Made by a program: the position numbers and the translations under genes. The notes under the pieces were generated by a model. It searched no databases, had not been told where the DNA came from, and saw nothing but the letters and a program-made list of their open reading frames with translations. Below, in pieces: positions 9,072 to 36,613 of a stretch of 64,000 nt of DNA; positions within the stretch are counted from its first letter, which is position 1; each line of letters starts with the position of its first letter. Source of the stretch: Rhizobium sp. NZLR1 (GTDB lineage: Bacteria > Pseudomonadota > Alphaproteobacteria > Rhizobiales > Rhizobiaceae); contig NZ_CP071633.1 in NCBI RefSeq assembly GCF_017357385.1, positions 372,001 to 436,000 of the forward strand, in the 5' to 3' direction.

Positions 9072-9965
9072 ATGTCCGCTGCGATGTTCACGACCGACGA
9101 ACTTGCGTTGATCCGCCGCGCTTACGCCCATCAGGTGGCAGCAACCGCCGGAACGACGAACCCGCGGATCGAGGCTGCCTTTGCCGCTGTCCCCCGCGAA
9201 AAATTCCTCGGTGCGCCGCCATGGCAGATCGCCAATCTCGGTGGCGGATATCGCCCCCTGCTCTCCTCAGATGTGGTTCTGGCCTATCAGGATGCGCTGT
9301 TCGCCTTGCAGCCCGACAAGGGCGTCAACAATGGCAGCCCGTCGCTGCATGCCCGTCTCCTGGCGGAATTGGACGCCCAGATCGGTGATCGCATCGCTCA
9401 TATCGGTGCCGGCACCGGTTATTATAGCGCCATTCTCGCGGAGCTGGTGGGCGCCACCGGGCATGTCTATGCCGTAGAAATGGACCCCGATCTGGCCGGC
9501 CATGCCCAAGCAGCGCTTGCCGACCGGTCCAATGTCAGCGTCATCACCGCCGACGGCAACCAATGGCCGCAGCAAGAAGTGGATGCGATCTGCGTGAATT
9601 TCGCCGTCGGGCGTCCCGCAGCGCCGTGGATCGAAAAGCTGCGAGCCGGAGGGCGCCTGGTGTTGCCCCTCGTTGTACCGCGCCAGGGCCGGCCGGCGAA
9701 TGGCGGTCGTCATGCCTCTCACGGCGCCGCACTTCGTATTGAGCGCGGCGCGAGTGGATTTGCAGCGCGTTGGATCGGCACAGCCTATTTTGTCTGCGCC
9801 GATGGTGGATTGATGATCGAGGAGAACGAGATCGAGGCGCTGACGACCGCCTTCCAGCGCGGCGGCATCGAGTTCATCAAAAGCCTGCTCTGGAAGACGG
9901 ACCCGCGGATAGGACGCTGCTGGTATATCGGCGACCAATGGGCGCTCTGCTATGACGATCCCTGA
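9072..9965 (+). CDS. Protein-L-isoaspartate O-methyltransferase-like SAM-dependent methyltransferase
   Basis: The 297-residue protein belongs to the PCMT-like Rossmann methyltransferases, which use S-adenosylmethionine to methylate damaged aspartyl residues. VPREKFLG near the N-terminus and the SAM-binding IGAGTGYYSAILAEL with an acidic strand end (VYAVEMDPDLA) are clear. The canonical GQTIS substrate loop of true PCMTs is replaced by NNGSPSLHARLL, and the protein is about 80 residues longer than E. coli Pcm. It may therefore be a paralogue with another substrate. TCCGGAGATTAGCC precedes ATG 9072. It is monocistronic, with a gene-free region after it. Confidence 0.75.
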   Translation: MSAAMFTTDELALIRRAYAHQVAATAGTTNPRIEAAFAAVPREKFLGAPPWQIANLGGGYRPLLSSDVVLAYQDALFALQPDKGVNNGSPSLHARLLAELDAQIGDRIAHIGAGTGYYSAILAELVGATGHVYAVEMDPDLAGHAQAALADRSNVSVITADGNQWPQQEVDAICVNFAVGRPAAPWIEKLRAGGRLVLPLVVPRQGRPANGGRHASHGAALRIERGASGFAARWIGTAYFVCADGGLMIEENEIEALTTAFQRGGIEFIKSLLWKTDPRIGRCWYIGDQWALCYDDP

Positions 9966-10728
9966 AGCATTCCTTCCAGAGTGCCGACTGCTGCATCTCC
10001 GTTGCGAACAGCGACGCAGCCCACCACGCCGAAGATCTCGATGCCCCTCGCCCCTTCGCCCGGCGCGATCAGTCGGCCGCAGGTTTGATCAGCGACGACA
10101 TCGCAACACCCGAGCATCCGGCGGAGATGGTATGGGCGATGACACGTTCGGAGTGTCGACCTTAGATCCGGCCTTCCCGAAGCTTAGCGCAAGCTCGCCA
10201 ACGGCGCCTCTCCCCAGTTGAAGCGGGAAACTCTGCTGTTGAAATTTGCTGTCGATGATCTTCGAGATCGAGCCGGAGGCGCCGAGTATTCGAGCCGCGG
10301 CCATGCGGCGAAAGTTCATATGAATTGCGCACCACCGCCGGCGGCAAGGCGGCAGCTTCGGCGCAGGTTGGCGACGCAGGCAATGAACTTTGCCGCCGGC
10401 TCCGCCGATCCCGTTTGAGGACCGGATCGATAGGAGCGGAAGAAATGGAGGATGTGGCCTGTCCGGCTACTCCAGTGGTTTGCCGAAACAGCGAAAGCCC
10501 GGCGCGGGAGAGGCACCGGGCTTCGATAGTGAGCGACAGCCTGGGAGGAGGAATGACTGTCTGTCGGACCCAAGCGGCTCGGAGGGGTGAAGCGCTTCGG
10601 TCCATCACGAGGTAGTGCCGCGACGCGGCAAATTCAAGCTTGGCGGCTGGGTGGCAAGACGGGTGACGCTGCAAGAGGGTCGAATTGGGCGCAGCTTTTG
10701 ATTATTGCTCGCGGCCGGATTCGGCGGC

Positions 10729-10744
10729 GTTGTCCGCGGACAAC
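10729..10744. repeat. 16-bp palindrome, copy 1 (candidate parS / RepB site)
   Basis: GTTGTCCGCGGACAAC is a perfect 16-bp palindrome. It fits the parS pattern I recall for repABC plasmids (GTT, four bases, GC, four bases, AAC). Two more exact copies lie within about 1 kb, and a 12-of-16 match is found in the repA-repB gap of this same plasmid. Function as a partition site is inferred. Confidence 0.5.
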
Positions 10745-10884
10745 TTGCGCTGCGCCGCCACTCATTCCCGAAGCGAGCAGGTCGCTGCGTCCTTTGAGGC
10801 GTTTGCGGGGAGCGCCTCAGGCTCAATTGGACGACAGCGTAAGGTGAAGTGTTCTCGAGAACTTGTTCTGTCTCGATGGTCACC

Positions 10885-10904
10885 GGGTTGTCCGCGGACA
10901 ACCC
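10885..10904. repeat. 16-bp palindrome, copy 2, extended to a perfect 20-bp palindrome
   Basis: The same GTTGTCCGCGGACAAC core (10887-10902) is flanked by GG and CC, giving GGGTTGTCCGCGGACAACCC. It is 156 bp from copy 1. It lies just before the start of the tandem-repeat array. Confidence 0.5.
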
Positions 10905-10956
10905 ATTTACGATCAATCCCGTATTCTCGACGCTCAGGCTTTCGCATAGCTGATCC

Positions 10957-11700
10957 TTCCTCACCTTTAGCGCGCGGCGCCGACGCTGCTCCTTGCATTT
11001 CCCTCGACGTCGGCGCACCCGCATCGCCCGTCGAGGCCCCGAGCGGCGCGCTTCAGGGTGAGGCTCTCGGGGGTAGTATCGGAATCTTCAACGCCTGAAA
11101 TTGAGACGCAGGAAATCTACCGCCCCTTGTTGGGGGCGCATCCTCCAGCGTGCGCCTCATCTTGAGACACGCAGGCCGACAGCCGGAGCCTCGAAGGACG
11201 TGCTCAGCGCCGTTCCTTGCACTCCTTCGGCGTCGGCGCACCGGCCTCGCCCTTCGAGGCCTCTTGCGGGGCGCCTCAGGATGATGCTCTCGTGTGCGGT
11301 GGCGCGGGTTCTTCAACGCGCACTATTGGAGCGCAGATCCGCAGTGTCCCTTGTTGAGGACGGCACCCTCAGGGCGTTCCTCATCCTGAGGCGCGCAGGC
11401 CGACGGCCGGAGCCTCGAAGGGTCCGCTCCAGCGCTGCTCCTTGCATTCCTTCGACGTCGGCGCGCCCGCCTCGTCCTTCGAGGCGGTGCGCCTCGGGAT
11501 GAGGCTCTCGTGGGCCACGGCACGGCATTCTCCAGCGCTCGTTGTTGGGCGCAGATTCCTGGCGTCTCCTATGGACGGCGGCACCCTCTAGGCGTCCCTC
11601 ATCCTAAGGGGCACAGGCCGAAGGCCATTGCCTCGAGGGAGACGCCGCAGCGCTGCTCTTTGCATCCATTCGGCGTCGGTGCGCCCCTCGCATTTCGCTG
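10957..11700. repeat. Tandem array of a ~218-224 bp palindrome-containing repeat, about 3.5 degenerate copies
   Basis: Units begin at CCTCAT near 11155, 11379 and 11597, giving spacings of 224 and 218 bp. A shortened first unit runs from about 10957. Each unit contains CTCATCnTGAG, then GCAGGCCGACGGCCGGAGCCTCGAAGG or a variant of it, then CTTGCATTCCTTCGACGTCGGCGC or a variant, CCTTCGAGGC, and a mirrored GCCTCAGGATGAGGCTCTCG-like segment. Each unit can therefore fold on itself. The last unit breaks off near 11700. The motifs resemble dispersed palindromic repeats seen between genes in alphaproteobacteria, but I cannot assign a named family. Confidence 0.8.
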
Positions 11701-11759
11701 CCATGCACACCAGTTGCGGGGCGTGTTGAATAGGCTTTGCGGCCATCGTCTGATTGGAA

Positions 11760-11775
11760 GTTGTCCGCGGACAAC
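11760..11775. repeat. 16-bp palindrome, copy 3 (candidate parS / RepB site)
   Basis: This is the third exact copy of GTTGTCCGCGGACAAC, about 60 bp beyond the end of the tandem array. Copies 1 and 2 lie on the other side, so the palindromes bracket the array. Confidence 0.5.
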
Positions 11776-12731: not shown

Positions 12732-13811
12732 ATGCCAGATGTGCTTCACCTCAAGAAGATGTCGATCGCAGCGGCGATGGTGGCTGCGGCGATCGGCGCA
12801 CTTGCGTTGATGCAGGCAACGGAGCGCAGTTCCGTTCCCCCGAGTGCCGAACCCCGCCGCGCGGTTGACGATCATGGCCGCAGCGCCGCGACGCCCGAGG
12901 CTATTCCGCTCCGCGGACTTCGCGATGTGTTCTGGCGCGTCTACCATGAAGTCCTGAACGACCGGGTCACACTCATTGCCGCGGGTGTGACCTTTTATCT
13001 GCTGCTGGCGCTGTTTCCCGCCATGGCGGCTCTGGTGGCGCTCTACGGGCTGGTTGCCGATCCGATCACCATATCCGAACATCTTCGCGAATTGGCCGGC
13101 CTCATGCCGCCGGGAGCGTTCGATCTACTTGCCGATCAGATCAAGGAACTCGTCAATAAGCGCGACAGTGCACTTGGCATCACCTTTTTCGTCGGTCTCG
13201 GCATCGCGCTATGGAGCACGCATAGCGGCACGCTGGCGATCTTCGATGCGATGAACGTCGCCTATGAGGAGAATGAAAAGCGCGGTCTTATCCGGTTGAA
13301 CCTCGTCGGACTCTGCTTCACCTTGAGCGCGATGCTTCTGACGGTGGTGATGGTGGCGCTTGTCGGCGTCATGCCGGTTGTGCTTTCCTATCTCTGGCTC
13401 GATCAGTTCAACGAGCACATGGCCCTTCTCCTGCGGTGGCCGCTGCTGCTGCTGGTCGTCGCGGTGGCGGTTACCTCAGTCTACCGCTTTGGCCCCAGCC
13501 GGGAGCCTGCCAAGCTCCGGTGGATGACGTGGGGCGCCGTTCTGACGACGGTCGCCTGGGCCGCCATGTCTCTCGGCTTCTCCTTCTACCTCGATCATTT
13601 TGCCAATTATAACGCGACCTACGGCACGCTCGGTGCGCTGATCGGCCTCCTCATCTGGATCTGGCTTTCCGTCGTCATTCTCGTCATCGGCGCGGAGCTC
13701 AACGCCGAACTGGAGCATCAGACCGCGAGGGATACGACGACGGGCACGCCGCTGCCGATGGGCGCGCGTGGCGCCTATGTTGCAGACACTCTGGGCGAGG
13801 CCGTCAACTGA
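12732..13811 (+). CDS. YihY/BrkB-family inner-membrane protein
   Basis: The protein has 359 residues. The family core starts at about residue 65 (FWRVYHEVLNDRVTLIAAGVTFYLLLALFPAMAALVALYGL) and contains about six transmembrane helices, ending with LIWIWLSVVILVIGAELNAELE, the conserved YihY/BrkB signature. An extra N-terminal helix (about 10-30) and a loop precede the core. I use ATG 12732, which has GGAGA nine bases upstream; the frame is open further up but that part looks non-coding. The function of the family is not established (once mis-annotated as RNase BN). It is followed 86 bp later by a PLP-enzyme gene that probably has its own promoter. Confidence 0.88.
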   Translation: MPDVLHLKKMSIAAAMVAAAIGALALMQATERSSVPPSAEPRRAVDDHGRSAATPEAIPLRGLRDVFWRVYHEVLNDRVTLIAAGVTFYLLLALFPAMAALVALYGLVADPITISEHLRELAGLMPPGAFDLLADQIKELVNKRDSALGITFFVGLGIALWSTHSGTLAIFDAMNVAYEENEKRGLIRLNLVGLCFTLSAMLLTVVMVALVGVMPVVLSYLWLDQFNEHMALLLRWPLLLLVVAVAVTSVYRFGPSREPAKLRWMTWGAVLTTVAWAAMSLGFSFYLDHFANYNATYGTLGALIGLLIWIWLSVVILVIGAELNAELEHQTARDTTTGTPLPMGARGAYVADTLGEAVN

Positions 13812-30968: not shown

Positions 30969-32774
30969 ATGAAACTCTCGATACGCATGCAGATTCTCGT
31001 GCCGATGGTGGCAACGATCGTCGTCGGCTTCGGCAGCGCATTCCTGATCGGCTACCAGGCGGTCACCGGCCAGACCCGGGTCGCCGCGGTGGTGCAGGAG
31101 GCGGTGAACGCCAAGCTGGCCTCCGCTCATATCGAACAGCAGTTCCGGCAAGCCACATCGGTGGTCGAGCGGGTGCTGTCGATGACGAACTTCGTGCCGG
31201 CGACCGAGGTCAAGGCCGAGTTTGACGCGACCGACAGCGTGCTCTCGCAATCGCTCGATGAGCTTGGCCGCATCGATCTCGCCGCTTCGCTGACCGAGGG
31301 GGTACGATCGCTCCGCCAGGCGCATGAGGTCTGGGATAAGAATGTCAGGATCAGCCTTGGACTGCAGCAGGCGGAAGAGGTCCCGACGGCCGAAAAGCTG
31401 GCGCGTTCGCAGCAGGCGATCCTGACCGGAATTGCCGCCGTCAATGCCATCGTCGATCAGATTGCGACGGAGAGTGTGGCTGACGCCGGCAGCGCGTTGG
31501 AGACGAAGATCGAAATCGAATTGGCCTTGGCGGGCCTTGCCGCCATCATCGGTCTCGGCATACTGATCGCCATCGCCCGGCACGTGTCGCGCCCGATCCA
31601 GCGCATCACGCACTCCATGCAGGAGCTCGCGAGCGGCGAGACGGACAAGGCGATCCCCTATGCGGGGCGCCGCGACGAGATCGGCCTGATGGCGGGCTCG
31701 GTGGAAGTCTTCCGCCAGAACGCCATCGCCCGCACCCGGCTCGAAGGCGAAGCCGCGGAAAACCGGCGGCTGGCGGAAGCAAACCGGCTGGCTGACCAGG
31801 AGCAGGCGGAGGCGAGCGCGGCCGAGCGGCTGACGGTTGCCACGTCGGGTCTCGCGGCCGGGCTGAAGCGGCTCGCGGAGGGCGATCTCGCCTTCAAGCT
31901 CTTGGACCGGTTCGCGCCGGAATTCGAGCCCCTCCGAAATGATTTCAACGCCTCCGTCGAGCAGCTCGGCGGCACGCTCCTTTCCGTTTCCGAAAGCGTA
32001 TCGATCATCAATTCCGGCACTCGCGAGATCAGCGACGGCTCCAACGAACTCTCCGGCCGCACCGAGCGGCAGGCGGCGACGCTCGAACAGACCGCCGCGG
32101 CGCTCAGCGCCGTGACTGCCAAGGTCAACGAAGCCTCCAAGATCGCCGAAGAGGCCCGCGGTGTCGCCGACAGTGCCAATCGCAGCGCCGTAGCCTCGGG
32201 CAAGGTCGTGGCCCAGACAGTCGATGCCATGGGGCAGATCGAGGAATCGTCCAAGCAGATCAACAACATCATCAGCGTCATCGACCAGATTGCCTTCCAA
32301 ACCAACCTCTTGGCGCTCAATGCCGGTGTCGAGGCTGCCCGGGCCGGCGAGGCCGGCAAGGGTTTTGCCGTTGTCGCCCAGGAGGTGCGCGAACTCGCAC
32401 AGCGCTCGGCCCAGGCCGCCAAGGAGATCAAGGACCTTATCGGGCGGTCGTCCGCCAAGGTCACCACCGGCGTCGAACTGGTCAACCAGACCGGCGCAGC
32501 ACTTGGTGATATCGGCCGCTTCATCGTCGATATCAATCGGTTCATGGAAGCACTGGCAGGCGCGGCGCGCGAACAGTCTACCAACCTGTCGGAAGTCAAT
32601 GCGGCCATGCACCAACTCGACCAGGTGACCCAGCAAAACGCCGCAATGGTGGAGGAAACCACAGCCGCCAGCGTCACGCTTGCCGGCGAGGCCGAGCGCC
32701 TGCGCGAGCTGGTTACCCAGTTCGAACTGGGCAGGGCGGCGTCCGGCACGCGGGCCTATCGCAATGCTGCCTGA
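30969..32774 (+). CDS. Methyl-accepting chemotaxis protein
   Basis: The 601-residue receptor has transmembrane helices at about 9-31 and 180-205, with a helical periplasmic sensor between them. A HAMP linker follows ([25 protein letters not shown]), with a second HAMP-like stretch ([14 protein letters not shown]). The signalling hairpin carries the highly conserved tip [20 protein letters not shown]. The start is ATG 30969, with GAGG nine bases upstream. It is coupled to the cytochrome c peroxidase gene (11-base gap), suggesting sensing of a redox cue or oxygen species. It lacks a C-terminal CheR-binding pentapeptide. Its 3' end overlaps the convergent repC end by 19 bp. Confidence 0.93.
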
Positions 32775-34054
32775 GCGGGGTGCGAGGGAGATGAGCCCCT
32801 CGTGCGCAACTGCGCCATCAGCATCGGACCGAGCGCGAATTCGCCGCGTTCGGCGCGTCGCGTCAGGTCCCTGAGATAACCGCCGGCGGAGTTGATGCTC
32901 TCTCCCCGCTGCAGGATGCAGGCCATGACGGCAGCGGTGTTCTCCGGTCCCATCACCTTCGCCGCTTCCTCATAGGCCGACGGGCCGACGCCCAGCATCG
33001 AGCGCACGACGATCGCCGCCATCATCAGGTCCCGCCAACTGGCGATCGCGGCGCCTGGCCCATAGTCGACAATGTCAGGGCAGGCCTGCAGAACCATGCC
33101 GAGCGGGAAAGATTTCAATCCCGCAGCATTCGTCCGGGCGATGGCCCGCGATCCCTCCCCGTCCTTCCCCACCATTCTGGGTTCGCACCTTTCCAGCCCT
33201 GCCCTCGGCTCGCAATCTCGGTTCGCCTTCTGCCCCGTTTCCAAGCCCGGTTCAGATTCAGATGTGGATTCAGGGTTCGAATTCTGTATGTGGCGCTCAA
33301 TCTGGGATTCATTGGTGCTCGCTATCTGAATTTTATCGTGCGATTCCAATGTGTTGATGATGTTTCGGCGCGCCGTCTCGAGCTCTTCGAGGACCGGCGA
33401 GAGGTTTTCGGGCGTTGCTGCCCTCGGAATGCGCTGCAGGAGCGCCTGGAACATCGAAGAGGTGCGCTCCCAGTCACCGGGAACCGCTTCCGCGACGGCT
33501 GCGGAAACGAGCTTGGCGATATCGCGCCGGCAGATCGTCAGCCGCTCCTTCATTGCGCGCAGCATCTGTCGGTCAGCGGCGATGCGGGCGGCGATCGTTT
33601 CGATCTCGGTGGCGCGGGCAAGAAGCGGCGCCAGGCTGAAGCCATAGGCCTCGTCGAGCCCGCCTTCCCTGTGGCGCCTGATATAGCGCTTGCCGTTCGG
33701 GCTGTCCTTGCGGGAGATGAGGCCGGCTTCAACGAGACCTGCGAGATGCCGGCGCAATGTCGCGGCGGCCATGCCGCGTGCCCTGAGGCAAAGTTGCGCG
33801 TTCGAGGGAAAGACGACCAGTCCTTTCCCACCGGACAGCTCGTCGTCGGGAAAAAATGTCAGCAGCGCATCGAGCACCGTCAGCGCCCGGTCGCTCACGC
33901 CGAGACGCGCGCGGGCCTCGCAGACAGATCTGAACAGTTTCCACTTGTTGCGTCTCGTCCCGGGCTCGATCGCTTCGCCTCGCCGCTGTTTCAGCAGCAT
34001 GGCAAGCGACATTGGCCGCCGCCCGAAGGGCGTCGTCACACATTCACTCTCCAT
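32756..34054 (-). CDS. repC: Replication initiator RepC
   Basis: RepC is the initiator of repABC plasmids and acts at an origin usually placed inside its own gene. The 432-residue protein has the family start [18 protein letters not shown], a winged-helix DNA-binding part (about 50-150, with [32 protein letters not shown]) and a long polar linker (about 250-310). A conserved C-terminal domain carries [26 protein letters not shown] use ATG 34054, with AAAGGTGAAGGAA upstream; a GTG three codons earlier is less likely. RepC expression should be held down by the antisense RNA in the gap to repB. The 3' end overlaps the convergent chemoreceptor gene by 19 bp. Confidence 0.95.
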
Positions 34055-34102
34055 TTCCTTCACCTTTCATCAGGCAAAAGAAATCCGCTCACCAAACGGC
34101 GC

Positions 34103-34203: not shown

Positions 34204-34261
34204 TGCTTAAGGATAGGAGAAGGGCTTCCACGACCTGGTCGTTTGGGGGCCTTTTTCTTTT
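34204..34261 (+). ncRNA. Antisense counter-transcribed RNA (ctRNA) controlling repC
   Basis: The 213-bp repB-repC gap holds, on the strand opposite to repABC, a promoter at 34169-34197 and an intrinsic terminator at about 34220-34261. They define an RNA of about 58 nt. Size, place and orientation match the ctRNA (incA/repE) described for other repABC replicons, such as that of R. etli p42d. It should pair with the repB-repC mRNA leader, favour the hairpin that hides the repC start, and so set copy number and incompatibility. The ends are inferred from the promoter and terminator, not measured. Confidence 0.75.
34220..34261 (+). terminator. Intrinsic terminator of the ctRNA
   Basis: AGGGCTTCCACGACC pairs with GGTCGTTTGGGGGCCT, including several G-U pairs, and is followed by TTTTTCTTTT. 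The stem is the body of the ctRNA as well as its terminator. Confidence 0.7.
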
Positions 34262-34267
34262 GCGGTT

Positions 34268-35245
34268 TCAGTCTCCTTGATTGCTCTCCTCGGCGAGGAA
34301 TTGCTCATAGAGCACATCCAGCCTGCTGGAGAGAAATTTTCCGAAGCGGCCGGCATTCCTGGCTTTCATCGAAAGCGAAAATGCCTTGCCGTCATTCTTC
34401 ATTTCTGCCTGAACTGCCTTGTCCCGCGGCTGCCATTTGACCTTGCCTGCCGCGGCTTGGGTTTTCTTCACCGGCCGGGCGCTTTTGTTCAGCGCCGTGT
34501 AGAGCGCTTCGAAACGTTTGTCGGAGGGCGATCCAAGAAAATCGTCGTCTTCCAGGATCTTGGCGATATCGGCCGCATTGGCCGACTTGCCGGCGAGCAG
34601 CGAAAGCTCCACCCAGCGCTCACGGCCGATGCCGGGCGCAGCGCCGATCGCCTCGACGACCTCCGGCGAGATGCGATCCATTACCGTTATCATCTTCGAA
34701 ATCGACGCCGCATTGGCGGCGAGTGCGGTCGAGATGACCTCCCTGTCGTAGCCAAGCTCCTCCAGCCGGCTGGCAAAGAGGGCGCGCTCGATGAAGGTAA
34801 GATCGGCCCGGGCCGAATTCTCCTGCCCTTGGGCGATGACATGGGTCCGATCGTCGATCGCCTTGACGACGGCCCTGACATTGCGGCCGAGTTGGCGGGC
34901 CGCGCGCAGGCGCCGATGGCCGAAGACAACCTGATAGCGTCCGTCGATCTTGCCATGGGGACGCACCAGGATCGGTGTATCCTGCCCGCGGGCGCGGATC
35001 GCTTCGACCAGCGCGCGGAATTCCTCGTCGTCCTCGGACAGACGGTCCTTGACGAAGGAGACATCGACGACATCCGGGTCGAGATCGACGACCGCCTCGC
35101 CCTCCAGGAACTTCTCCGCCTGTTTGGCCAGTTCATCCAGCGAGCGGACAAGCGACCGGCCTGCCCCGCGCATCGGATAGTTCGGCGCGCCTGCGCCCTC
35201 GTCAGGCATGTCGCCCAGCCCTTCCAGAAGATTCTTTCGTGCCAT
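34268..35245 (-). CDS. repB: Partition protein RepB (ParB family)
   Basis: RepB binds the plasmid centromere (parS) and works with RepA in segregation. The 325-residue protein starts MARKNLLEGLGD. It has the ParB/Spo0J nuclease-like core (PILVRPHGKIDGRYQVVFGHRRLRAARQLG, about 95-125) and a helix-turn-helix region (LGYDREVISTALAANAASISKMITVMDRI, about 165-195). A GTG lies one codon earlier, but ATG 35245 has CGGAGGACGTG at better spacing. The 69-bp gap to repA contains a 13-bp inverted repeat with a parS-like centre. The repB-repC gap downstream encodes the ctRNA. Confidence 0.95.
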   Translation of the reverse strand: MARKNLLEGLGDMPDEGAGAPNYPMRGAGRSLVRSLDELAKQAEKFLEGEAVVDLDPDVVDVSFVKDRLSEDDEEFRALVEAIRARGQDTPILVRPHGKIDGRYQVVFGHRRLRAARQLGRNVRAVVKAIDDRTHVIAQGQENSARADLTFIERALFASRLEELGYDREVISTALAANAASISKMITVMDRISPEVVEAIGAAPGIGRERWVELSLLAGKSANAADIAKILEDDDFLGSPSDKRFEALYTALNKSARPVKKTQAAAGKVKWQPRDKAVQAEMKNDGKAFSLSMKARNAGRFGKFLSSRLDVLYEQFLAEESNQGD

Positions 35246-35290
35246 CACGTCCTCCGATTGCGGTCAATCAATTGATTCGGTTTAAGGAAA

Positions 35291-35320
35291 CGATGAATTT
35301 GTCAGCCGACAAGTTCATCG
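35291..35320. repeat. repA-repB junction inverted repeat with parS-like core
   Basis: CGATGAATTTGTC (35291-35303) and GACAAGTTCATCG (35308-35320) are inverted with one mismatch around AGCC. The centre, TTGTCAGCCGACAA (35299-35312), shares 12 of 14 bases with the TTGTCCGCGGACAA palindromes at 10.7-11.8 kb. It overlaps the last codons of repA. It may be a RepB-binding site, a transcript hairpin between repA and repB, or both. Confidence 0.6.
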
Positions 35321-36523
35321 CCCCCATGCCTGGTGAATGAGATCGGCAATCTCTGCGTTGACCGAGCCCATCGCCTCCAGCGCCCGATCGTAGGTTCCCC
35401 GGTTCATCGACGAACGCTCGACCTCGTAGAGCGTCTGCTTGGTGATCCCGGCATCCGAGATCGCCGTCGATTTGACCATCTGGTTCCGGAGCATGAACTC
35501 GTGGAACATCGTCGACATGAAGCCGACCATTTGCGCCTGCGGCACGTCGGTCGGCTCGTAGCGGGTGATCAGATAGCGGTACCAGGAGAGGTTCACTTCG
35601 GCGCCGGCCGCGCGGATCGGCTTCAGGATGCCGCCGAGCATCAGCAGGAACTGGCCCATCGACATGACGTCGAGCATCTGCGGATGGATGGTGATCAGCA
35701 CGCTTGTTGCCGCCGTCAGCGCCGTCAAGGTGAGGTAACCGAGCTGTGGGGGGCAATCGATGACGACGACATCGTAGCGATCGTCGACTTCGGCAAGGGC
35801 GCGCGAGATGCGGGTGAAAAACGTCTTGCCCTCATTGGTCGATTTGTCGGCCATGGCGAGCGGCGTGTCGTATTCGTATTCCTGCAGATCGAGATTGGCC
35901 GGCACGATATCGAGGCCGGGAAAATTCGTCCTGTGGATGATGTCGGCGAGCGGCTTCTTCTCGCCGTCGTAGCGGATCGCTTCGTAGATGGATGCGGCCT
36001 GGTCGAACTCCGGCTGGAACCCATGCAGGGACGAGAGCGATGCCTGCGGATCGAGATCGACGGCAAGCACGCGGTGGCCGGTCAGCGCAAGATGCTGGGC
36101 AAGATGGGCGGCCGTCGTCGTCTTGCCGGAGCCGCCTTTGAAATTGACGACGGCCAGCACCTGCAGCTTCTCATTGCCGCGGCGATGGGGAACATACATG
36201 CGGCTTTCGGAGCGGCCGTGGACATCGAGATATCGTCTCAGTTCCAGCATCTGCTCGGCGGTGTAGGAGCGGCGTCCGGAGGGCGACGTTTGCGGGCAGG
36301 GGCCTTTGCCTTCGAGATGGAGTTTCTTCAGCGTGCTTTGCGAGGCACCGACGAAATTCGCGACCTCCGCCAGGGAGAAGTTGCGCAGCGTTTTCTTCGC
36401 ATTGGGCGGAAAGCGCTGCACGCTGAGCAGATGCAGCTTCTTTGAAATCACGTCGCCATGTTCGAGGATCTGATCCTCGAATTGCAACGGCGCCTTGTTC
36501 AAAGGCATCAAACTAGCGTTCAT
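35315..36523 (-). CDS. repA: Partition ATPase and autorepressor RepA (ParA family)
   Basis: This Walker-type ATPase of about 402 residues moves plasmid copies apart and represses repABC transcription. A helix-turn-helix precedes the ATPase (FSLAEVANFVGASQSTLKKLHLEG, about 50-72). The deviant Walker A FKGGSGKTT is at about 128-136, with AVDLDPQASLSSLHG and VVVIDCPPQLGYLTL following. I use the ATG at 36523; TTG 36532 is less likely. GAGAG lies just upstream. repA is the first gene of the cassette, with an inverted repeat in its promoter region near 36625. The cassette order repA, repB, ctRNA, repC is complete and looks intact. Confidence 0.96.
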   Translation of the reverse strand: MNASLMPLNKAPLQFEDQILEHGDVISKKLHLLSVQRFPPNAKKTLRNFSLAEVANFVGASQSTLKKLHLEGKGPCPQTSPSGRRSYTAEQMLELRRYLDVHGRSESRMYVPHRRGNEKLQVLAVVNFKGGSGKTTTAAHLAQHLALTGHRVLAVDLDPQASLSSLHGFQPEFDQAASIYEAIRYDGEKKPLADIIHRTNFPGLDIVPANLDLQEYEYDTPLAMADKSTNEGKTFFTRISRALAEVDDRYDVVVIDCPPQLGYLTLTALTAATSVLITIHPQMLDVMSMGQFLLMLGGILKPIRAAGAEVNLSWYRYLITRYEPTDVPQAQMVGFMSTMFHEFMLRNQMVKSTAISDAGITKQTLYEVERSSMNRGTYDRALEAMGSVNAEIADLIHQAWGR

Positions 36524-36613
36524 TGGCAGCAATCTCTCGGATAACGATTTTCGGGATCAAAAGCCCTGCTAACCGTTATTATCCGCGATTCTCCGATGCC
36601 AGCCAAGAATTTT

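Follow-up and report, generated by a model that had tools for sequence, protein, structure and literature searches.

A cluster of parS-type palindromes probably serving as a remote centromere for the second repABC operon of a Rhizobium plasmid

Three identical copies of a 16-base palindrome, GTTGTCCGCGGACAAC, lie in a 2.8-kb gap between two genes on a large plasmid carrying two repABC operons, and very probably represent a parS-type centromere. This reading is based on their match to the repABC parS consensus, their confinement within the genome, their conservation and their identity with operon-linked sites elsewhere, all of which lend good sequence-level support to the original prediction of a plasmid centromere. 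The window, i.e. the whole 64-kb stretch of DNA analysed (C2:372001–436000), is part of contig C2 (913,960 bases), a 914-kb plasmid, and contains one of the two repABC operons, to which the palindromes had first been assigned. That assignment is probably wrong, as the site tracks a second type of RepB and is retained by four plasmids that do not figure among the listed records with a local-type RepB. It is likely that the cluster is instead the remote parS of the second repABC operon (C2:1–3658, outside the window), 382 kb away.

Table 1. Coordinates of features in the window, including the palindrome cluster, its bordering genes and the local repABC operon
Feature	Coordinates	Strand	Basis
PCMT-type methyltransferase gene, left gap border	9072..9965	+	Pfam PF01135; synteny in fetched relatives
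Probable ar14 small RNA	10490..10605	-	RF02344, 56.4 bits (gathering 58.8), E 6e-9
parS-type palindrome 1, GTTGTCCGCGGACAAC	10729..10744	.	Exact match
parS-type palindrome 2	10887..10902	.	Exact match; flanks similar in L092
Tandem array of dispersed repeat, ~218 bases x 3.2	10984..11686	.	TRF
parS-type palindrome 3	11760..11775	.	Exact match; flanks similar in L092 and L122
YihY/BrkB-family gene, right gap border	12732..13811	+	ORF; name from annotated relatives
Local repC	32756..34063	-	NF040974
ctRNA of local repABC	34218..34263	+	RF00489, 57.4 bits
Local repB (RepB1)	34268..35248	-	TIGR03454, PF07506, PF02195
TTGTCAGCCGACAA, repA-repB junction, probable local RepB site	35299..35312	.	Pattern match
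Local repA	35315..36532	-	TIGR03453

Copy number and confinement of the palindromes

A mismatch scan of the window recovered the palindrome exactly at three positions (Table 1), as originally predicted. The sole further match at up to three mismatches has three and none was found at two or fewer, while none of 100 shuffles reached four matches. Exact searches of the 6.86-Mb genome (6 contigs) returned the same four matches to TTGTCNGCNGACAA as the window itself, one of them at the repA-repB junction, and none for the reversed control; this agrees with the original scan by eye, in which the pattern was not noticed elsewhere, and is a count of exact matches. Genome-wide, GTTGTCNGCNGACAAC is confined to the three cluster places (reversed control 0), to which TTGTCNGCNGACAA adds the junction at 35299 only. 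Four sites on C2 lie within two mismatches of the palindrome, namely the three cluster copies and one within the second repB. By our estimate, about 0.002 exact matches to a 16-base sequence of such make-up are expected by chance in a genome of this size.

The cluster sites fit the repABC parS consensus GTTNNCNGCNGNNAAC, which has three exact matches in the window. They also match the loose pattern GTT-N4-GC-N4-AAC (GTTNNNNGCNNNNAAC) invoked in the original prediction, a fit that holds but is weak evidence alone, given 97 occurrences in the genome versus 75 for the reversed control. The loose pattern occurs in the window at the three cluster sites and nowhere else, and at 14 sites on C2, none of which comes closer than ~9 kb to the second operon or 6 kb to the local operon. 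A close relative of the palindrome had likewise been proposed at the repA-repB junction; this site does share the palindrome core, but its sequence, tTTGTCAGCCGACAAg, lacks the outer G and C.

The gap around the cluster

The gap is bordered by a PCMT-type methyltransferase gene and a YihY-family gene, the start of the latter being set by the length of annotated relatives. Its description as gene-free does not hold strictly: a probable ar14 small RNA lies left of the palindrome interval, and small hypothetical ORFs are annotated in the gaps of relatives, one of them overlapping a palindrome in L006. The ar14 stretch is partly identical in all 11 gaps compared, and this small RNA, although adjoining the cluster, probably does not belong to the centromere. 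GANTC (CcrM) sites number 6 in the 2,770 bases of the gap versus 1.18 per kb on C2, a comparison of small counts. The GC skew of C2, inspected for a working origin, has no clear switch.

Palindromes 2 and 3 flank a tandem array (period 218, 3.2 copies, 74% matches), consistent with the predicted bracketing of a repeat island, but the repeat itself is dispersed and looks incidental. We rejected it as a part of the centromere because it recurs at least 31 times elsewhere in the genome, always on contig C1 (4.58 Mb; 40 of 78 candidates scored), and because the palindromes are merely 42–49 bases apart in five of the 11 compared gaps, where similar repeat sequence is found elsewhere in the gap. As a separate observation, 28 of the 31 listed C1 matches crowd into the region of C1 at ~2.73–3.15 Mb, which, with 40 of the 78 candidates scored, is possibly in part an artefact.

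Conservation in related plasmids

Six plasmids with DNA similarity to the gap, chosen from 30 listed, have two or three sites of the core TTGTCCGCGGACAA within it. The core is present in all 14 complete p42f-type plasmids checked (local RepB 87–92%; the six included), with one to four cores per record; these were drawn from 50 records with a local RepB of at least 80%, and in eight of them the view took in the 14-base core, the outer bases lying outside it. The core was found in none of the five other plasmids of R. etli CFN42. Among genomes, all 21 with a local RepB of 85–94% contain TTGTCCGCGGACAA, which lies on the contig of the junction at a distance of 22–37 kb in 14, near the other contig end in one (G041) and on other contigs in six; G005, G010 and G024 among these 21 also carry a core site away from the cluster. 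Many relatives are draft genomes in which replicon membership was deduced from contigs.

Although the search asked for 14 bases, the full 16-mer is present at 71 of 81 core sites from 40 loci, most of which had been fetched for having the core. In 11 gaps picked regardless of the palindrome, five 16-mers are shared throughout: the palindrome itself and four others that overlap in one stretch of the ar14 region. A family sample of 199 genomes contains the 16-mer in 13 (our own included) and at least two copies of it in 10, with a reversed control of 0. The TTGCG right flank of palindrome 1 recurs at one site each in L006–L011, L092, L093, L108 and L122. We also observed that the flanks of the second site in L007–L009 resemble those of two different sites in other plasmids, site 2 on the left and site 3 on the right, as would result from loss of the DNA between two palindromes. 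pRL11 was considered as the p42f counterpart and discarded: it has no TTGTCNGCNGACAA match, and p42f has been paired with pRL12 (PMC2434198).

A second repABC operon on the same plasmid

The replicon carrying the palindromes has two repABC operons. The local one is complete, with a ctRNA between repB and repC (Table 1). A search with the local RepB revealed a second complete operon at C2:1–3658 (repA2, repB2 and repC2; ORFs of 397, 333 and 434 aa), whose RepB2 (C2 1198–2199) is 39% identical to the local protein and has a counterpart in all 14 complete p42f-type plasmids. Two repABC operons have been reported for p42f and pRetMim1f (PMC2783167, PMC4125696), which are of the same plasmid type as the one analysed here, in accounts whose available text is silent on the places of parS. 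Both repB genes are under purifying selection, with a mean dN/dS against relatives of 0.12 for repB1 (14 comparisons) and 0.11 for repB2 (13), the comparisons not being mutually independent. Independently of the palindromes, repC2 (C2 2354–3658) is 64% identical to the local repC, yet repB2 only 39% to the local repB, which suggests an exchange of parts between operons.

The copy within repB2, GTTGTCCGCGGACGAC, is the palindrome with one base changed (15 of 16 bases). It occupies one position in the gene of the window plasmid and of 13 out of 13 fetched p42f-type relatives (14 of 14 genes aligned; the gene of CB782, the remaining one of the 14 relatives, was left out), and is found in the repB2 of TA1 too. 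Its position is the sole invariant one among 329 16-base windows in that reading phase across the 14 genes, in which 85 of 334 third codon positions are invariant. The five more distant RepB2 relatives aligned (65–76%) all have the perfect 16-mer at this position.

Proposed assignment of the cluster to RepB2

Operon-linked copies of the palindrome in more distant genomes point to the second RepB type. Eight genomes combine the core TTGTCCGCGGACAA with a local-type RepB of 68–72%, and all eight have the core at another repABC operon, either within its repB or 35 bases to 2.4 kb upstream of its repA. The RepB of that operon is 65–76% identical to RepB2 in five and similar to it over ~60 residues in two, while that of G026 falls outside the fetched stretch. 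Similarly, the 16-mer lies upstream of repA in G115, G198, G089, G182, G209 and G095 (for two of the six, if the record is circular), where RepB is 53–58% identical to RepB2 versus 39–41% to RepB1. The palindrome sequence in relatives is accordingly one found at operons of the presumed cognate RepB type, either upstream of repA or inside repB, and in a phylogenetic tree RepB2, the operon-linked RepBs and the RepB of G047 form one clade with moderate support (0.84), the local type forming another (0.95). A joint move of the cluster with its neighbour genes was considered: in the short stretches fetched at operon-linked sites, neither the methyltransferase nor the YihY gene turned up, with the exception of L183, where a methyltransferase of 67% identity lies 2.7 kb downstream of repC in G209. 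Two sites speak against the association: the only palindrome of G193 has no repA beside it in the 7 kb fetched, and that of G047, likewise single, lies 4.9 kb upstream of repA.

Plasmids in which the two RepB types are separated are informative as well. TA1 pRltTA1D, 248 pRle248e and the plasmids of WSM1689 and R. anhuiense T24 encode a RepB2 of 91.9–93.7%, and each has two perfect palindromes in the corresponding methyltransferase-YihY gap, 174–356 kb from repABC2. A close local-type RepB (E up to 1e-130) occurs in 62 records, 60 of them listed, and none of the four plasmids is among those 60; the palindromes are thus present in plasmids not found among the listed local-RepB records, contrary to what ownership by the local repABC would predict. 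In R. leguminosarum NZ_CP016287 and R. indicum NZ_CP054022, the best match to the local RepB is RepB2. In total, 17 of 113 plasmid records with a RepB2 of at least 80% were looked at, and CB782 in addition to these. The local repABC was displaced as the most likely owner of the cluster once the second RepB had been found.

From these patterns we infer binding by RepB2, centromere activity of the cluster, partition driven by the second operon and a role for the intragenic copy. We propose, by analogy with pAMI4 (PMC9040568), that RepB2 would bind the 16-base sites and gather at the cluster and that RepA2 would move the resulting complex, in which case the plasmid would be pulled by the cluster and not by the operon. 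The one-base-off copy that stays in repB2 may serve autoregulation or act as a minor centromere. For the local repABC, the site used would be TTGTCAGCCGACAA in its own junction. The inner and outer bases distinguish the two site classes and may be what separates RepB1 from RepB2.

Layout of the plasmid

The cluster is 113–461 kb from the second repABC in the 14 relatives. Its distance to the local junction is 22–38 kb in 14 of the 15 plasmids with both operons (the window plasmid included) and 255 kb in CB782, and it is nearer to the local repABC than to repABC2 in all 15. This closeness is weak evidence for function, since it may go back to one ancestral event. A different order was observed in G031:C27 (L118), with a local-type junction at 206623 and a second-type repABC plus two palindromes at 246909–249202, ~40 kb apart. 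Our guess is that this order is possibly ancestral, the operons having once been neighbours before the second moved off and left its sites behind.

A speculative and, at present, doubtful extension is that the plasmid is naturally dicentric with its centromeres held close: in 14 of 15 plasmids, the centromere of one partition system would lie 22–38 kb from the other's operon, centromere and origin, but 113–461 kb from its own genes. The two systems would form one segregation unit in which the local repABC gives the origin and the remote repABC the pulling force. If true, this arrangement would protect the molecule from the tearing to which dicentric DNA should be prone.

Other arrangements came to light among the loci fetched. 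A single TTGTCAGCTGACAA site lies ~20 kb from another repABC operon in two species (L243, G040:C53, ~2023; L244, G008:C9, ~2039), within a gap where alignment has been lost though the blocks on both sides still align; that operon has two TTGTCAGCTGACAA sites 2.4 kb apart, and the single site is perhaps another remote parS. Some repABC operons (L178–L181) combine perfect palindromes of two classes: GTTGTCCGCGGACAAC, found upstream of repA, and GTTGACAGCTGTCAAC, found upstream or beyond repC.

Alternative explanations

The junction site shares the TTGTC-GC-GACAA core with the cluster and differs from it in the inner and outer bases. The common core may allow cross-binding, and a single centromere shared by two partition systems, with both RepBs using the cluster, would also be in keeping with the closeness of the cluster to the local repABC and with purifying selection on both repB genes. 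We nevertheless consider such sharing unlikely, because the site classes differ in both pairs and discrimination fits these differences better. The inner pair is C/G in all 81 core sites of the strand-symmetric form of the pattern versus purine/pyrimidine in the junctions of closer relatives, and the outer pair G..C, present at the 71 core sites with the full 16-mer, occurs at none of the junction sites.

Ownership by the local repABC, in which the local RepB would bind the cluster and the junction would be a weaker operon site, appears quite improbable. It would account for the 22–38 kb distance in 14 of 15 plasmids, the core common to cluster and junction, and the presence of TTGTCCGCGGACAA in every one of the 21 genomes with a close local RepB. 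More distant genomes do not follow: among 20 grouped by their local-type RepB alone (64–75%), 12 have no core and eight have it beside or inside another repABC. Around RepB relatives (54–94%), a TT..C.GC.G..AA site stands at 66 of 80 corresponding places, never flanked by G..C, and GTTNNCNGCNGNNAAC was found in none of the 80 fetched loci. The two palindromes retained by each of the four plasmids without a listed local-type RepB also argue against local ownership and for assignment of the cluster to RepB2.

The distance to the presumed operon, on a plasmid with another repABC, might also suggest a partition system that is no longer active, of which the palindromes are a chance leftover. We regard this as very improbable, given purifying selection on repB2 and the statement that TA1 plasmids all have functional repABC genes (PMC4492784). 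All 16 bases are intact at most core sites, albeit in loci largely fetched for having the core, and in all 11 gaps picked regardless of the 16-mer. Least probable of all is that the palindromes serve as operator for a transcription factor with no role in partition: repressors typically have palindromes of this size and an ar14 small RNA is nearby, but copies lie up to 3 kb apart (L122), the same sequence occurs at repABC operons and within repB2, and on C2 it is limited to the cluster and repB2.

Comparison with known systems

The remote layout, predicted to be unusual, is indeed rare but not new in kind, as remote parS clusters are already known (PMC9040568). If the assignment to RepB2 is correct, the best parS copies of a lineage of large Rhizobium plasmids (among those checked, R. 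leguminosarum TA1 pRltTA1D and R. etli p42f) appear to be hundreds of kb away from the partition genes. The remote cluster would make it possible to test the need for a centromere near operon and origin, how two repABC systems coexist on one molecule, and what explains the apparent absence of a perfect parS from some repABC operons. In the literature searched, which did not extend to the figures and supplements of PMC9040568, we found no report of this cluster, nor the palindrome as a literal string. The published survey began with GTTNNNNGCNNNNAAC sites in the repABC region (PMC9040568), and a survey of this type might skip p42f-type plasmids because neither operon of the plasmid analysed here has such a site nearby.

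The parS sites of repABC replicons are described as almost always located within or near the operon (PMC9040568). Operon-linked Rhizobiales sites in more distant relatives of the window plasmid conform to this, with an identical 16-mer upstream of repA or inside repB, whereas the window plasmid has its perfect copies off the operon and a repB2 copy that is one base off. A parS inside repB, and incompatibility exerted by the two parS of pRleTA1b, have been reported (PMC4492784).

The closest functional precedent is 3parS of Paracoccus aminophilus pAMI4: each of its remote parS sites is bound by RepB, and deleting the locus disperses RepB foci and lowers stability (PMC9040568). Like the window cluster, 3parS comprises three identical 16-base sites in ~2 kb of non-coding DNA outside the repABC operon; it differs in sequence (GTTGACAGCTGTCAAC), in lying 11.5 kb from repC, in being AT-rich and in an exact copy left in the operon (PMC9040568). 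The window cluster, by contrast, is separated from its presumed operon by 113–461 kb across plasmids, is not AT-rich and has an operon copy one base off. In common with 3parS-like loci, it has multiple identical parS in a long stretch of non-coding DNA beyond the operon, with small hypothetical ORFs in the gaps of relatives, and we propose that it would work like the 3parS locus. We do not file it as a member, since both described remote loci are AT-rich whereas the cluster region has a G+C content of 62% versus 61% for C2.

Nearer in taxonomy are chromosome 2 of Allorhizobium vitis and Neorhizobium pNCHU2750a, also Rhizobiales, which combine a remote multi-copy parS locus with one degenerate copy (PMC9040568); the one-base-off copy in repB2 is reminiscent of the degenerate site of A. 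vitis chromosome 2. Their two-parS locus is 30–90 kb from repC (PMC9040568). The sites of pNCHU2750a are of a different class (GTTGACAGCTGTCAAC twice and GTTGACGGCTGTCAAC once, with no TTGTCNGCNGACAA), and the arms read GTTGTC in the window cluster versus GTTGAC in the known remote loci, from which the cluster also differs by residing on a plasmid with two repABC operons. In this last respect the plasmid resembles the dicentric fusion chromosomes of Agrobacterium, in which two partition systems act on one molecule, both systems are essential and XerCD is needed (PMC12153318). The two presumed centromeres of the window-type plasmids differ from these in lying 22–38 kb apart in 14 of the 15 plasmids.
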